From a virus: a stretch of DNA of 25,019 nt. Both the position numbers and the translations under genes were made by a program. The notes beneath the pieces are model-generated. The model searched no databases and had not been told where the DNA came from. It saw only the letters and a list, made by a program, of their open reading frames with translations. The stretch covers positions 1-25,019 of the IMG/VR virus record IMGVR_UViG_3300032088_000076, one strand, 5' to 3'. Of this stretch, positions 1,362 through 24,816 are shown piece by piece (the stretch's first letter is position 1; each line of letters begins with the position of its first letter).

Positions 1362-1649
1362 TTATATAAAGTAATTAATATCTGCATCATATTTCTTTTG
1401 GCAAGCAGTAATAGCCTGTTCCATAGTTTTGTAGTAATCAGTTCTTGGCAAGTTATTACGCTTGCAAAGCCATGTTACTAAATATAAAGGCTCTAAGGAT
1501 AACCAGCCATGATGGCTAGATTTCCCTTTCCTTGCACTTACTACAAAGCCTGTATCTTCATTAACAAAGTCCAAAGGCTGTTCTTCTAGGGTTTCTTCAT
1601 AAATACTGATGCCATATTTTTCAGTAAAAGTTTGCATTTTTTGTGTCAT
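1362..1649 (-). CDS. Unknown protein, 95 aa
   Basis: A 95-aa protein starting MTQKMQTFTEKYGISIYEE; a second ATG five codons in (MQTF) is also possible. It has a basic stretch (SARKGKSSHHGWLSLEP) and ends DADINYFI. No family recognised. Unlike its neighbours it is preceded by an untranslated stretch of 86 bases holding a terminator-like hairpin and a second small hairpin, so its expression may be uncoupled from, or attenuated relative to, the gene upstream. Its leader CTAAAAACTAAAAAA just before ATG is typical of the A-rich leaders in this genome. Confidence 0.75.
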   Translation of the reverse strand: MTQKMQTFTEKYGISIYEETLEEQPLDFVNEDTGFVVSARKGKSSHHGWLSLEPLYLVTWLCKRNNLPRTDYYKTMEQAITACQKKYDADINYFI

Positions 1650-1735: not shown

Positions 1736-2020
1736 TTAGCTTGTAAGGGCTTTAAGCATTTGCTTATCTACTTTATAATTACACATGAAAGCCATGTCTT
1801 TTATATCAGCTTTATCAGTAGCACTTAGGCCATCTGCATTCCAATCAGTATCCTCTAAATCACTTATTAATAAATTAGCTAATTTGTCATAATCCCAGTG
1901 GCTTAAAGGTTTACCAATCATCCAGCTTATACACCTACCATAAACCATAATCTGGGTTTCCATGTATCTAGCTATTAATAATTTCCTGTAGTGGGTTTTG
2001 CTGTTAGTTTTTTTCATCAT
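1736..2020 (-). CDS. Unknown protein, 94 aa, first gene after the control region
   Basis: A 94-aa protein starting MMKKTNSKTHYRKLLIARYM (the second Met is an equally good start). It has a basic N-terminus followed by a helical region and an acidic middle (ISDLEDTDWNADGL), ending VDKQMLKALTS. I do not recognise it. It is the first gene downstream of the predicted minus-strand promoter at 2158-2188 and is followed by a strong hairpin terminator, so it may be the most highly transcribed gene of the early-type cluster. Small size, basic N-terminus and position would suit a regulator or host-takeover protein, but nothing in the sequence proves that. Confidence 0.75.
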   Translation of the reverse strand: MMKKTNSKTHYRKLLIARYMETQIMVYGRCISWMIGKPLSHWDYDKLANLLISDLEDTDWNADGLSATDKADIKDMAFMCNYKVDKQMLKALTS

Positions 2021-2157
2021 TCTTAGTTTTTAGTTAATTACTATAATTTAAGTTTAAGCCACTCGCCAAGTAATTTTTAAGCTGGCTGCTATTATTCTTA
2101 TAGCTAAGGTTTTCGGGTTTATAGTTTATAGTTTTAACTTACCTACTAACAACGGCA

Positions 2158-2188
2158 CAAAGATATAAAAAAATTAGTAATTAACAGT
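2158..2188 (-). promoter_or_regulatory. Bacteroidetes-type promoter for the small-gene cluster
   Basis: The minus strand carries TATCTTTG (2165-2158), a full match to the Bacteroidetes -7 consensus TAnnTTTG. ACTG lies 19 bases upstream (2188-2185) at the position of the -33 TTTG element but matches only two of its four bases. Transcription would start near 2150 and read the small-gene cluster that begins at 2020. The imperfect upstream box and the nearby dyad and repeats suggest an activated or repressed promoter. Confidence 0.55.
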
Positions 2189-20727: not shown

Positions 20728-20926
20728 GTCTTTGTACTTTGTTAGTTAATTCTAAATCTGTTTCATAGCATAACCAAGTAAGGCAGGTGTATAATTCCAG
20801 CCCTGCTATTTGTGCTAAGTGTATTATATTTCCATTTGTCAATCTATACATCACCCCAAACCAGCCCCACCTACTGGCGAAAGCTTCATCATTATTCCTA
20901 CCTATTTCAGTTAAATCATTATCCAT
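20714..20926 (-). CDS. Second tail assembly chaperone component (gpT-like)
   Basis: From ATG 20926 this gives 70 residues (MDNDLTEIGRNNDEAFASRW...). The segment ASRWGWFGVMYRLTNGNIIH and ECLTWL-like CLTWLCYETDL is a pattern I know from small proteins after tail chaperone genes in Bacteroidetes phages. The ATG shares one base with the upstream stop (TAATG), as for two other genes in this operon, so reinitiation is one route. The same frame is open back to 21001, where a T9 run would allow a -1 shift to make a chaperone fusion, as for lambda gpG/gpGT. Either or both products may exist. Confidence 0.65.
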   Translation of the reverse strand: MDNDLTEIGRNNDEAFASRWGWFGVMYRLTNGNIIHLAQIAGLELYTCLTWLCYETDLELTNKVQRHARK

Positions 20927-21531
20927 TATGCTGTCGCTTCCCTCAATTTCATTGTTAAAAACAGTGGCAAAATTTTTGATAGTTTTCTTACGAAAGTCCA
21001 AAAAAAAACAAGGGCACTTTGCACCTGTTCTGCTGCCATATCTTTAAATTCTTGTTCCCTAATACGCTTACTATCTACATCATACTTTTCAATAGTGTAA
21101 AAATTTCCTTTAGTTTCTACAATAGGCCTGTATAGCACTGCCATAATCCTATGCATGTTAGCCTGCAGGCCATCTTGTATGCAGCTTTCTATATCTGCCC
21201 ATTCCCCTAAAGTTATTTCTTCAAGGTTTGGGTGAAAGCCATATTCTATTTCATTTACAGTTATTTTGTTCTGCAGGTTACTGTTAGCCCTTGCCTGTAT
21301 ATCAGCTAGCAATTTCATTAGCTTAGATACATCTTCTATATTTAATTCCTTAACCAGTTTTTCTGGCATATCGCTTAGGGCTGTTATGCTTGCTATAGCT
21401 TCTTCTGCCTTGTTTTTAGCACCAGCTGCATTAGCAATTAATGTAGCCCAGCTTTCTAAGCTTACATCTTCCCAGCTATTTATAATATTATAGCTTTCCT
21501 TTTTTCCGTCTTTGGTAATATTTACTTTCAT
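20926..21531 (-). CDS. Tail assembly chaperone (gpG-like)
   Basis: A 201-aa soluble helical protein starting MKVNITKDGKKESYNIINSW. A WEDVSLESWATLI segment near the start and EITLGEWADIESCIQDGLQA in the middle, then a C-terminal VFFWTFVRKLSKILPLF region, follow the pattern of tail chaperone-like genes in Bacteroidetes phages. It precedes the short gpT-like frame and the tail genes. The TTTTTTTTT run near codons 175-178 lies just before the out-of-frame overlap. Start supported by leader TTAATTAAGGACTATG with an AAGGA ribosome site. The tape measure partner is encoded about 7.5 kb later. Confidence 0.65.
   Translation of the reverse strand: MKVNITKDGKKESYNIINSWEDVSLESWATLIANAAGAKNKAEEAIASITALSDMPEKLVKELNIEDVSKLMKLLADIQARANSNLQNKITVNEIEYGFHPNLEEITLGEWADIESCIQDGLQANMHRIMAVLYRPIVETKGNFYTIEKYDVDSKRIREQEFKDMAAEQVQSALVFFWTFVRKLSKILPLFLTMKLREATA
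21000..21009 (-). promoter_or_regulatory. Candidate -1 ribosomal frameshift site (G-T9)
   Basis: Minus-strand codons GTT TTT TTT TGG (21009-20998) contain nine T. Slipping one base back on T-TTT-TTT moves reading into the frame that encodes the gpT-like protein, open from 21001 to its stop at 20714. Position and direction match programmed shifts in tail chaperone genes. The downstream stem is weak (TTTC-GTAA-GAAA), so efficiency is unknown. Confidence 0.5.
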
Positions 21532-21555: not shown

Positions 21556-21585
21556 TTTGTTATTTAGTTTAAAATCGTATATTTG
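21556..21585 (+). promoter_or_regulatory. Plus-strand Bacteroidetes-type promoter
   Basis: Plus strand has TTTG (21556-21559), 18 bases, then TATATTTG (21578-21585): full matches to the -33 TTTG and -7 TAnnTTTG elements at an allowed spacing. Predicted start is near 21590. It points away from the chaperone gene and into the terminal part of terL on the opposite strand. No plus-strand protein frame with a start follows it, so an RNA product is suggested. Confidence 0.6.
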
Positions 21586-21589
21586 TCTT

Positions 21590-21690
21590 AGTTTTTAGTA
21601 GTACTTTGTATAGTAATAAGTTGGGCAGCTACTTGTAACCTACTTGGCAGGCTGGCGTAAAAGGCCTTATTATTGTACAAAGTATTTTCC
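21590..21690 (+). ncRNA. Candidate structured antisense RNA, terL-chaperone spacer
   Basis: From the promoter at 21556-21585 a transcript of about 100 bases would fold into one long hairpin: bases 21600-21620 pair with 21666-21686 over 21 uninterrupted positions around a 45-base loop, followed by a short U-run (21685-21688). Three pairs are G·U on the plus strand (21601/21685, 21611/21675, 21613/21673); on the minus strand each becomes an A·C mismatch, so the fold favours a plus-strand RNA. The loop can form a small CAGC/GCTG inner stem (21626-21629 with 21651-21654). The 3' arm covers the last five codons and stop of terL in antisense. Could also be a processing stem in the minus mRNA. Confidence 0.5.
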
Positions 21691-22980
21691 AAAATTAGGC
21701 TGCAGGTTATAATACATTCTCATCATAATAGCATCTGCATAATCTGGGCTTCTGCCTATGTTTAATTTCACATCTTCCTTAGGTATTATTTGCAGCTTAT
21801 TATCCTTATCCATATCCTTAGCCCTTACCTGTTCCAGTTCTTCTATTATATGCTTTTTAATATTTACATCATTTACACTTACACCTAGCTGGCCTTTGTT
21901 TATTATATCTGCCAGCTTATAATAGCACTGGGTTTTTAGGTTTTGGTAATTTTCTGCATTAATAGGCCTGCTGTTATTTACAAAGCCCTTACACCTTAAA
22001 TAATCTTTAGCCCCACCACCTACCCCATCTTCATCTATAATTATATTAGTAAGCTTAACTTGGTGCTGCTGCTGCATATCCCTTACTGTTTCCACTATTA
22101 ATGGTATTTCGCTTTTAAGGTATGTAACCACCTTTTCTATATGTAGCCCCTGCCAAAGCATAATAACAGTTTTATCAGCCCCAAACCTTGCGACATCGCA
22201 TGTTATGTATTTATCCCCTGCCTTACCTTTTGTACTGAATATATTAAGTATTGCATCATATTGTATTAGGCTATCATTACTAATATCATATTCCCAGTTT
22301 CCATATAGTAGCCTTTGCTTACTTAATTCATCTAACTGGCTTAGCTGCTTTTCATAGTGCTGGCTTATAAACTTATTATCCACTACTAAGCTTTGGATAA
22401 ATTTTTTGTAAGGCTTTAATTTGTTTTCCTTAAAAGGCCTGTAATATTCTGTGTAAACCCAGTTTTTAGCAGGGTTACAAGTCATAAGCAGCTTGGGTAT
22501 TATATTAAATTTATCAAGCTTATACCTTAGCCTGCTGGCTACTACATTTTTCGCCTTTTCGCTTACTTGGTTTGCTTCATCTATAAAGGCTGCTGTAATT
22601 TCCAAACTACCTAAACTATCAAAATTCCTATCACTTGGGTATAAAAATAAGTCCTTTAGTATTATTTCGCTTTTATTAAAAAAGGTTATTATATTACTGC
22701 TGCCATTAAATTTATAGTGCTTATTAGCTATAAGCCCCCACTGCTGGCACACTTCAAAAAATGTATTTAAAGTGGTTTTCTTTAAAGCATCGAGCTTGCT
22801 TCTTCCCATTAAGTACCTAGTGCTTGGATATTTAACTGCCATAAGTATAAGCCAAGCACAGCCTACATAGCTTTTCCCACCACCTGCAGCACCGCCAAAA
22901 AGTATTTCCCTAGTAGTATTATCAAACAGGTATTCTATTGCTTGTTCTTGGGTGCCTGTAAATTCGGTATTAATAATCAA
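21670..22980 (-). CDS. terL: Terminase large subunit
   Basis: A 436-aa packaging motor. ATPase: Walker A GGAAGGGKS (29-37), Walker B AAFIDEANQ (D134, E135), coupling motif LLMTCNP (164-170). Nuclease: CDVARFG (D262), IIIDEDGVGGG (D316, D318) and SPDYADA (D413, D416), the three acidic clusters of the RNase H-like fold. It cuts concatemeric DNA and drives it through the portal. The start is TTG at 22980 because the next Met lies beyond Walker A and the upstream frame is closed; it overlaps terS by 11 bases, so coupled translation can compensate for the weak start. Its last codons form one arm of the plus-strand hairpin. Confidence 0.95.
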   Translation of the reverse strand: MIINTEFTGTQEQAIEYLFDNTTREILFGGAAGGGKSYVGCAWLILMAVKYPSTRYLMGRSKLDALKKTTLNTFFEVCQQWGLIANKHYKFNGSSNIITFFNKSEIILKDLFLYPSDRNFDSLGSLEITAAFIDEANQVSEKAKNVVASRLRYKLDKFNIIPKLLMTCNPAKNWVYTEYYRPFKENKLKPYKKFIQSLVVDNKFISQHYEKQLSQLDELSKQRLLYGNWEYDISNDSLIQYDAILNIFSTKGKAGDKYITCDVARFGADKTVIMLWQGLHIEKVVTYLKSEIPLIVETVRDMQQQHQVKLTNIIIDEDGVGGGAKDYLRCKGFVNNSRPINAENYQNLKTQCYYKLADIINKGQLGVSVNDVNIKKHIIEELEQVRAKDMDKDNKLQIIPKEDVKLNIGRSPDYADAIMMRMYYNLQPNFGKYFVQ

Positions 22981-23323
22981 CGCCCTTTATATTTACATTA
23001 ATTTGTATTGGCTCATCGCCACTGGTTAAATCTAATTCGTTCCTTTCTATGTAGCCCCTTTGCTTGCCTTTGGTTTTTAGATAAAATATAGTAGCACTTG
23101 TATTGCCATCACCTATTTGCTTATGTAACTGGCTTTCTGCATAATCTAAAGCTATATTAGTTATATCCTTTACTTGCTTAGCAAATTCCCTATCTTCCTT
23201 TAGCCATTTATAGTAAGTGCTTCTTGGTGTATTAGTTTGCTTGCAGGCTACAGTTACTACACCTAAGCTATTTTCTAAGGCCTGCAATAAAGCTTCCTTT
23301 TTTATATGTCTACTTTTGTCCAT
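22970..23323 (-). CDS. terS: Terminase small subunit
   Basis: A 117-aa DNA-binding protein. Residues 8-50 form a helix-turn-helix (ALENSLGVVTVACKQTNTPR, STYYKWLKEDREFAKQV); a helical middle is followed by GNTSATIFYLKTKGKQRGY, a typical ending of HTH-type small terminases, and a short beta-rich tail for oligomerisation or motor docking. It recognises the packaging site and loads TerL. It overlaps the next gene (terL) by 11 bases and the previous SpeD-like gene by 14. Confidence 0.9.
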   Translation of the reverse strand: MDKSRHIKKEALLQALENSLGVVTVACKQTNTPRSTYYKWLKEDREFAKQVKDITNIALDYAESQLHKQIGDGNTSATIFYLKTKGKQRGYIERNELDLTSGDEPIQINVNIKGVDY

Positions 23324-23594
23324 TATTTGTATATTTAATTAAGTTATAAAATGGCTGCTGTACACAGCTGCTAAGTTCAATATATGTAGTTTCTTCTTCT
23401 GGGAAAGTATGTACTGCAAAATGGCTTTCCCCTAATAAGAATAGTGCAGTATATCCATAAGGCTTAAAGTGTTTTTCTACTACATCTAAAACCTTAAAAC
23501 CGCTATCCGTTAATAGCTTAGTATAATAGGCCTTTAATTTGCTGGGGTTTGTTTCCCTTACCCAGTCGCTATAATTATGCATTTTAGCTTTCAT
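23310..23594 (-). CDS. speD: SpeD-like S-adenosylmethionine decarboxylase, compact
   Basis: A 94-aa protein. The segment GESHFAVHTFPEEETTYIEL followed by SSCV matches the bacterial/archaeal AdoMet decarboxylase proenzyme signature (ESHLTIHTWPE...C). S57 (self-cleaving, pyruvoyl-forming), H62 and C77 have the same +5 and +20 spacing as S63, H68, C83 of the Thermotoga enzyme. Family members are usually about 115-135 aa; this one lacks most of the region after the Cys and the usual first strand. SAM decarboxylation feeds spermidine synthesis; some SpeD homologues are ornithine/arginine decarboxylases instead. It lies between a SAM-dependent methyltransferase (11-base overlap) and terS (14-base overlap). 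Confidence 0.8.
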   Translation of the reverse strand: MKAKMHNYSDWVRETNPSKLKAYYTKLLTDSGFKVLDVVEKHFKPYGYTALFLLGESHFAVHTFPEEETTYIELSSCVQQPFYNLIKYTNNGQK

Positions 23595-24816
23595 CTACTA
23601 CTAAATCTAGTTTAGGGTATATGTTTTTTATCTGCTTGCTATCCCCTTTATAAAATACTAATATATTTTGATGGCACTTACCTACTTTTCTATTATGCAT
23701 ATACCGCCTAACCCTTTGGGGTAAGGTGCCCAGTGGCTCTACTAATATCATTTCATTATACAATAGCATGCCATTTTTAATAAATATATTTTTTACATCA
23801 TTAGGGAAATTATAATAACCGCCCTGCTTATTCCTTAAATCGCCCACCACTATAAAAGCAAACCTGTTATCCTTTAGGCACTTTATGCTATCCGTAAAAG
23901 CCTTTTCCAATATACCTAAAAAGCTTTTATATTCCTTTTGGTTACTGGCATCATTTTCTAGTTCGCTATACACTTCTAAATCAAAATAAGGCGGACAGCT
24001 AAATAATAAGTCCTGTGTATTAGGCTTAATATGCTTTAATACATTTTGCCCATCATCACAAATGTACTTACTTGCACTGCCTTTTAATCTTTGGTTATTT
24101 AAGTCCGCTTGTTCCTGCCTAAGTTCTATGCCAGTAAACTTATTACCCAAGTAATCGCTAACATACCCAAAAACACTATCCCCTGCAAAGCAATCAAATG
24201 TATTGCAGTTATCTAAGCCAAACCATCTATTCGCTATTTCTGCAAGCACTGGGTCAAGTATGCTTACACCATTATTAATATCGCCCATAAGTTCGCTTTC
24301 ACTTAACTTACCTTCCCTGCTTTCCCCTTTGTCATTTATTAATTCATGCCACCCTTTTTTCCTATCTTTCCAATAGCCTTGCCTTGTATCTAATATGCTA
24401 AAAGGCGGCACCACAAAGCTATCCTCTAGCTTATTATGCTGCTGCACTTTTTCATCTTCATTAACCCAAACATCTAGCCCCCATTCTTCAAGCTTGACAC
24501 TATCCCATTCATTAGCTAATATATCCCATTCCCACTGCCCAAAACCTACATTATCTTTTACTATAAATTCCTGCTTTTGTTCCTCTGTTAATCCTACTGC
24601 TTTTTTTATATGCACTTTAGTTAGCCCTGCATCTATGCAAGCTTTGTATCGCATATTGCCGCCCAGTATTACCATATTTTCATCTACTACTATTGGCCTT
24701 AGTTCTAACATTTCTGGGAAATCTTTAACACTTTGCACTAGCTGCTTAAATTTATTATCCTTAATGTTTCTTGGGTTACTGCCATTAGGCACTATTTTTT
24801 TAATATCTATTTCCAT
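23584..24816 (-). CDS. ParB-domain / DNA methyltransferase fusion
   Basis: A 410-aa protein. Residues 1-100 resemble a ParB/Sulfiredoxin-type domain (IVPNGSNPRNIKDNKFKQLV, RPIVVDENMVILGGNMRYKA). The C-terminal part is an N-6/N-4 DNA methyltransferase: LDPVLAEIANRWFG, SAM-binding motif I as FDCFAGDS (207-214), FTGIELRQEQADLN, catalytic motif IV as SCPPYFDLEVYS (273-284), then KCHQNILVFYKGD near the end. Order motif I before IV is seen. Cys in place of Asp/Asn/Ser at the start of CPPY is a variant found in phage members I recall. Such enzymes probably modify phage DNA against restriction. Recognition site unknown. Confidence 0.88.
   Translation of the reverse strand: MEIDIKKIVPNGSNPRNIKDNKFKQLVQSVKDFPEMLELRPIVVDENMVILGGNMRYKACIDAGLTKVHIKKAVGLTEEQKQEFIVKDNVGFGQWEWDILANEWDSVKLEEWGLDVWVNEDEKVQQHNKLEDSFVVPPFSILDTRQGYWKDRKKGWHELINDKGESREGKLSESELMGDINNGVSILDPVLAEIANRWFGLDNCNTFDCFAGDSVFGYVSDYLGNKFTGIELRQEQADLNNQRLKGSASKYICDDGQNVLKHIKPNTQDLLFSCPPYFDLEVYSELENDASNQKEYKSFLGILEKAFTDSIKCLKDNRFAFIVVGDLRNKQGGYYNFPNDVKNIFIKNGMLLYNEMILVEPLGTLPQRVRRYMHNRKVGKCHQNILVFYKGDSKQIKNIYPKLDLVVDES

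Follow-up and report, generated by a model that had tools for sequence, protein, structure and literature searches.

The window, meaning the whole 25,019-nucleotide stretch of the viral record IMGVR_UViG_3300032088_000076 (IMG/VR), carries all of its substantial open reading frames on the minus strand, including the large terminase gene, terL. In the spacer between terL and the next gene downstream, a predicted promoter faces the opposite way: on the plus strand, TTTG (21556-21559) is followed after an 18-base gap by TATATTTG (21578-21585), and an uninterrupted stem of 21 pairs (21600-21620 with 21666-21686, with 45 bases between the arms) lies shortly beyond it (Table 1). These elements had been named in a preliminary description made from the sequence alone, as had three pairs that are G·U only on the plus strand (21601/21685, 21611/21675 and 21613/21673) and the absence of an open reading frame starting downstream (none of at least 50 amino acids on the plus strand starts inside the RNA); all were recovered at the same positions. 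The same description called the gene downstream of terL a chaperone, a name not upheld by its family match, phrog_32199, which is of unknown function. The nearest named relatives of the phage are phages of Bacteroidota (Cellulophaga phi10:1, Flavobacterium 11b and Bacteroides Versailles). Elsewhere on the minus strand, a ParB-like N-terminal domain is fused to an N6/N4 DNA methylase domain (23584-24816), and a small phage S-adenosylmethionine decarboxylase homologue (PF02675, phrog_27309; 23310-23594) adjoins this methylase gene.

Table 1. Features of the terL spacer and of the early region in the window.
Feature	Position	Strand	Basis or remark
terL, large terminase	21670..22980	-	PF04466, E 2.5e-16; PHROG terminase families; ATG candidate at 22842, homology to ~22974
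Gene downstream of terL	20926..21531	-	phrog_32199, unknown function
Predicted promoter, Bacteroidota primary-sigma type	21556..21585	+	TTTG, 18 bp, TATATTTG; box conserved in relatives
Putative small RNA, ~100 nt	21590..21692	+	start at A21590, 5 nt past the box, inferred; 3' end approximate
Presumed seed, unpaired 5' tail AGUUUUUAGU	21590..21599	+	predicted fold; early-gene matches; swap test
5' arm of 21-pair stem	21600..21620	+	fold, inverted-repeat search, covariation
Small hairpin within loop	21625..21658	+	predicted fold; loop sequence kept in closest relatives
3' arm of stem	21666..21686	+	faces last terL codons and stop (21670-21672)
Weak U-run after stem	21685..21688	+	longer in most relatives, degraded in the window's own clade
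First early gene, predicted primary target	1736..2020	-	94 aa, no family match; pairing site 2021-2034, just before ATG
Second early gene, predicted second target	1362..1649	-	95 aa, no family match; pairing site 1654-1666
Early promoter box TATCTTTG	2158..2165	-	same class as small-RNA promoter

Although the promoter is present as described, its pattern alone occurs in the window at chance level (2 found, 2.0 expected), and its significance comes from its conservation in relatives and not from a count within the window. Flavobacterium promoters have TAnnTTTG at -12 to -5 (PMC9723704), and this spacing places the start of the predicted RNA at A21590; of 38 loci, 27 have a purine at the corresponding position. 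Among inverted repeats within 150 nt, no other in the whole window is as long as this hairpin, and the plus-strand fold reaches -36.9 kcal/mol (z -3.1; none of 200 shuffles folded as well), with -25.4 kcal/mol (z -2.0) for the minus strand. In the predicted folds of the window and of a relative (G003), the 5' tail is unpaired and the stem follows directly, a modelled layout that is the anatomy of a seed-type small RNA. The U-run reported after the stem (TTTT, 21685-21688, plus strand) does exist, but it is weak, and among the closest relatives sharing this stem it is weaker or missing. Whereas most relatives show the form of an intrinsic terminator, a G+C-rich stem followed by a U-run, the window has an A+U-rich stem and then UUUU only; the 3' end of the RNA is uncertain in the window's clade because its U-runs are weak. 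Rfam searches at gathering scores and at E values up to 10 gave only sub-threshold microRNA-like and other chance matches at the locus, and a tRNA search gave none there. A suggested pRNA-like packaging role found no backing, as no phi29-type pRNA match appeared in Rfam even at E up to 10.

The terL searches in IMG/VR led to a comparison of 160 distinct terL loci, with the spacers after terL classed as bare (<60 nt, 90 loci), middle (60-260 nt, 40 loci) or longer (22 loci). The bare spacer, lacking the unit, is the commonest state, and on the plus strand none of the 90 has a TANNTTTG box and none has a terminator. Among the 40 middle-class spacers, the TANNTTTG box lies opposite the terL strand in 34 and on the terL strand in 2, a full TTG-N17-20-TANNTTTG promoter is present in 23 (shuffled mean 0.95, maximum 3), and an intrinsic terminator 55-100 nt past the box is found on the plus strand in 29 vs. 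1 on the other. With box and terminator gathered on one strand, the sequence delimits a discrete, short predicted transcription unit with its own promoter. The two free positions of the box vary (TATATTTG, TATGTTTG, TACGTTTG), relatives differ in the sequence that separates promoter from terminator, and in most relatives the U-run sits against the terL stop codon. Twelve of the longer spacers retain the promoter together with a T-run spaced as a terminator would be, and several of these twelve have a complete plus-strand small protein gene with its own early-type promoter after the unit; since the unit is kept with a protein gene in between, it is independent of terL. The earlier proposal of a structured plus-strand RNA with its own promoter is thus strongly supported by the strand bias of box and terminator, by covariation in the stem and by the unit being kept apart from terL. 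As judged by comparison of sequences, about fifty relatives and the window carry a short predicted RNA gene between two virion genes, antisense to its neighbours.

Several other observations concern these spacers. Plus-strand protein genes of 74-103 aa lie between terL and the next gene in L328, L020, L021, L140, L329 and L240, with similar inserted genes in L310 and L322; such genes have early-type promoters (TAACTTTG, TATCTTTG) and often their own terminator at the terL stop. The motif TTGTCGT recurs in the hairpin part of otherwise unlike RNAs (L002, L013, L034, L039, L046, L104 and L207; 7 of 38 small RNAs, 0.5 expected); TACGACAA was considered as its common target and rejected, as recurrent sites were lacking outside the RNA. 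Also discarded was a leader peptide read on the sense strand (AACTAAAATGAA in some spacers), as the frame is not kept and other spacers, including that of the window, have no ATG. No prophage relatives were found in genome contigs, and the isolated relatives Flavobacterium phage 11b and Cellulophaga phage phi10:1 were set aside, having the portal gene close after terL and another gene order.

The 21-pair stem is common only to the window and three relatives (L001, L002 and L046); a further locus (L047) has the same spacer. When the proposed covariation check was carried out across the four aligned sequences, six of the 21 pairs proved compensatory and 97.6% of cells pair; as many both-side changes arose in 1 of 500 shuffles, and pairing drops to 37-55% when the stem alignments are slid. 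Synonymous-site changes in terL, and a change of its stop from TAA to TGA, are matched on the non-coding stem arm. One relative with 90% terL identity (L104) has a short conventional terminator only and another at 92% (L116) has a bare spacer, so that the long stem is a local version of the variable 3' part. The full loop pattern occurs in viral contigs at the window locus and in its closest relatives only, and in no genome contigs; the loop was therefore rejected as a mobile element, the short motif matches elsewhere lying in unrelated sequence.

This evidence bears on three readings that keep the function at the locus itself. A processing or terminator stem of the minus-strand mRNA after terL, previously held to be the main alternative, would account for the stem folding on that strand too (-25.4 kcal/mol); it is now disfavoured and exceedingly improbable, as all wobbles in the four stem sequences are G·U on the plus strand only, terminators stand on the plus strand (29/40 vs. 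1/40), and the plus-strand promoter is conserved. Also very improbable is a transcription roadblock, in which promoter and terminator interfere with minus-strand late transcription and the RNA is a by-product. The promoter does face the late operon, and the variable sequence between promoter and terminator would suit such a role, but a short unit just past terL would hardly affect late transcription, and interference does not explain why the leader tracks the first early gene, as set out below. The 3' stem arm of the window lies, as had been described, opposite the last terL codons and the stop, where the RNA could pair in cis with the 3' end of terL and separate packaging from tail expression. 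Silencing of terL is nevertheless unlikely because the overlap is small and is absent in twelve relatives: it comprises the last codons in the window, in most relatives no more than the U-run facing the stop codon, and nothing in the twelve whose units end well short of terL, while 90 loci have a bare spacer with no unit. The conserved overlap with the controlled mRNA that marks cis-antisense (OOP-like) RNAs shrinks here to the stop codon or is lost, and pairing in cis as the function is accordingly very doubtful.

The other place to which the 5' end of the RNA can be matched is the early region. The early genes follow the promoter at 2158-2165, just past a metallophosphoesterase gene, and have the same place in relatives. 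The leader of the first early gene holds a 14-nt exact complement to 21586-21599 (10 nt counting from A21590), and that of the second a 13-nt exact complement to 21588-21600 (11 nt counting from A21590). Of 30 start regions, that of the first early gene is the best match to the window's own small-RNA leader, with a modest duplex of -11.4 kcal/mol from the inferred start; one A is missing from this target in the near-identical G019. The small-RNA leaders of G003 and G004 cover early-gene AUGs by 13 nt. The evidence points to predicted target sites about 20 kb from the locus, at early-gene start regions.

Two features of the early region itself were observed. The region starts with tandem TANNTTTG boxes in a conserved arrangement in G003, G004, G006, G007 and G012-G014 (TTGTTAA-TAACTTTG, then TATCTTTG or similar ~32-42 nt on). 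The 5' leader of the first early transcript (window 2022-2157, minus strand) is conserved and structured-looking in G000, G001, G002, G018 and G019, with the motif AAGTAGG...CCGAAAACCTTAGCTAT...ATAGCAGCCAGC...TGGCTTAAACTT; it has no Rfam match at E up to 2, both-side changes occur in only 2 of its 20 predicted pairs, and G018 has this leader without the small RNA.

The phage specificity of the complementarity was assessed by swapping leaders between phages. Run without restriction across whole genomes, the swap test was significant on exact run length (p 0.008) but not on energy (p 0.12), and a whole-genome shuffle test reached significance in just 7 of 19 phages, not all of which are complete. 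Given this moderate signal, the test was narrowed to the first early gene and run on ten phages whose leaders are distinct, for which own leaders gave -136.7 kcal/mol vs. -93.2 (sd 8.6) for swapped leaders and none of 20,000 permutations did as well. Removing the four untranscribed bases left the outcome the same (own -128.7 vs. swapped -88.5 kcal/mol, sd 8.2; 0/20,000), and this result from the inferred start was stable to dropping any single phage. The first-early-gene hypothesis was formed partly on phages later in the restricted test. The sole clean held-out case is G011, which was kept out on account of its rearranged early region; its leader pairs with its first two early genes at -15.2 and -19.2 and beats 9 of 10 other leaders. 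The same swap test on random non-early genes showed no effect (z +0.3, sd 1.0), and genome-wide composition is therefore excluded as the cause. When starts were ranked for each phage's own leader, the first early gene came 1st-4th of 25-47 in eight of the nine phages ranked; the exception is G002, and for G001 no first early gene was ranked. G001, G002 and G014 show weak pairing with the first early gene or none at all, and the fit of G024 is less clear, its best duplex involving the G-run of the terminator. Two loci whose plus-strand units are protein genes (L310 and L290), taken as negative examples, gave no notable pairing. The window combines an unpaired seed in its predicted fold with complementarity to a distant mRNA, and across the ten phages none of the 20,000 permutations matched the own pairings.

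A plus-strand small RNA could still be made but have another role, whether by acting on host mRNAs, by serving as a sponge or by way of its hairpin loop, with the early-gene match reflecting shared AACTAAAATG-type start contexts. The leaders are U-rich and the start regions A-rich, and short motifs recur among the 38 RNAs (TTTTAGT in 18, TCATTTT in 15, and TTGTCGT at the excess given above), all of which would agree with such a reading. It is nonetheless unlikely, if deserving of some weight, as the first early gene pairs far less well with swapped leaders of similar composition, and non-early genes in these genomes do not share the effect.

The preferred reading, to which we assign a probability of roughly two in three, is that the locus is an autonomous gene for a trans-acting antisense small RNA that represses early-gene translation. 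Since the 5' end matches the start of each phage's own first early gene, the RNA is probably a brake on early genes. With slightly less assurance, the balance favours a wider statement, namely that an uncultured family of Bacteroidota phages keeps at a fixed locus a small RNA whose fast-changing seed tracks the phage's own first early gene, as an early-gene brake. At the level of sequence, comparison establishes the strand, the promoter, the terminator, selection on the stem and the phage-specific complementarity to the first early gene; from the same material we infer transcription, repression by pairing and the timing of action. Under this proposal, host RNA polymerase would start at the TTTG/TANNTTTG promoter, on the strand opposite to the phage genes, and yield an RNA of ~60-100 nt (more in the closest relatives), whose 5' tail is unpaired and whose 3' hairpin would in most relatives serve as an intrinsic terminator at the terL stop codon. 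In the phage's own first early gene, and in many cases also in the second, the seed in the tail would pair with the start codon and with a leader that is rich in A and has no Shine-Dalgarno sequence. Repression is suggested by the position of this pairing over leader and AUG, which most likely bars ribosome entry and would lower early-gene translation. The RNA may be made from early on, since its promoter is of the same class as the early promoter, and its dose would climb with genome copy number, which would let it restrain the early programme by feedback.

If true, this would provide a phage RNA regulator whose target is named, in a group of phages that has many relatives, and would add naturally occurring variants that have or lack the RNA or differ in its seed; the co-changing pairs of seed and target are a ready test of base-pairing. 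These phages read early and late genes from one strand, and how they turn early genes down would become a question that can be tested directly. The literature searches brought up no small RNA of Bacteroidota phages that was recognised as such, the phage RNA regulators in the papers found being mainly from temperate phages of Gammaproteobacteria.

Several known systems share parts of this design. The phi29 pRNA is likewise a structured phage RNA, and the RNA here adjoins the terminase gene; unlike pRNA, it has no Rfam match, is variable in sequence and is absent from most relatives. The lambda OOP RNA ends at a terminator and overlaps the 3' end of cII. It is a short antisense phage RNA with its own promoter (PMC12197685). 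OOP acts on the mRNA that it overlaps, cII, whereas the overlapped terL is an unlikely target here. The c4 RNA of P1/P7 and the sar RNA of P22 are phage antisense RNAs that block translation initiation of phage mRNA (PMC12197685), and the present RNA resembles them as a phage-encoded antisense RNA predicted, from sequence, to pair with phage mRNA. They control antirepressor synthesis in temperate phages, whereas here no repressor or antirepressor was identified and the predicted target is the first early gene, ~20 kb away. A precedent among Bacteroidota is GibS of Bacteroides thetaiotaomicron, whose single-stranded 5' seed pairs with translation initiation regions and represses (PMC7366714), as is proposed for the 5' seed here. 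GibS is chromosomal, with metabolic targets and a conserved seed, whereas in these phages the seed differs from phage to phage together with its predicted target.
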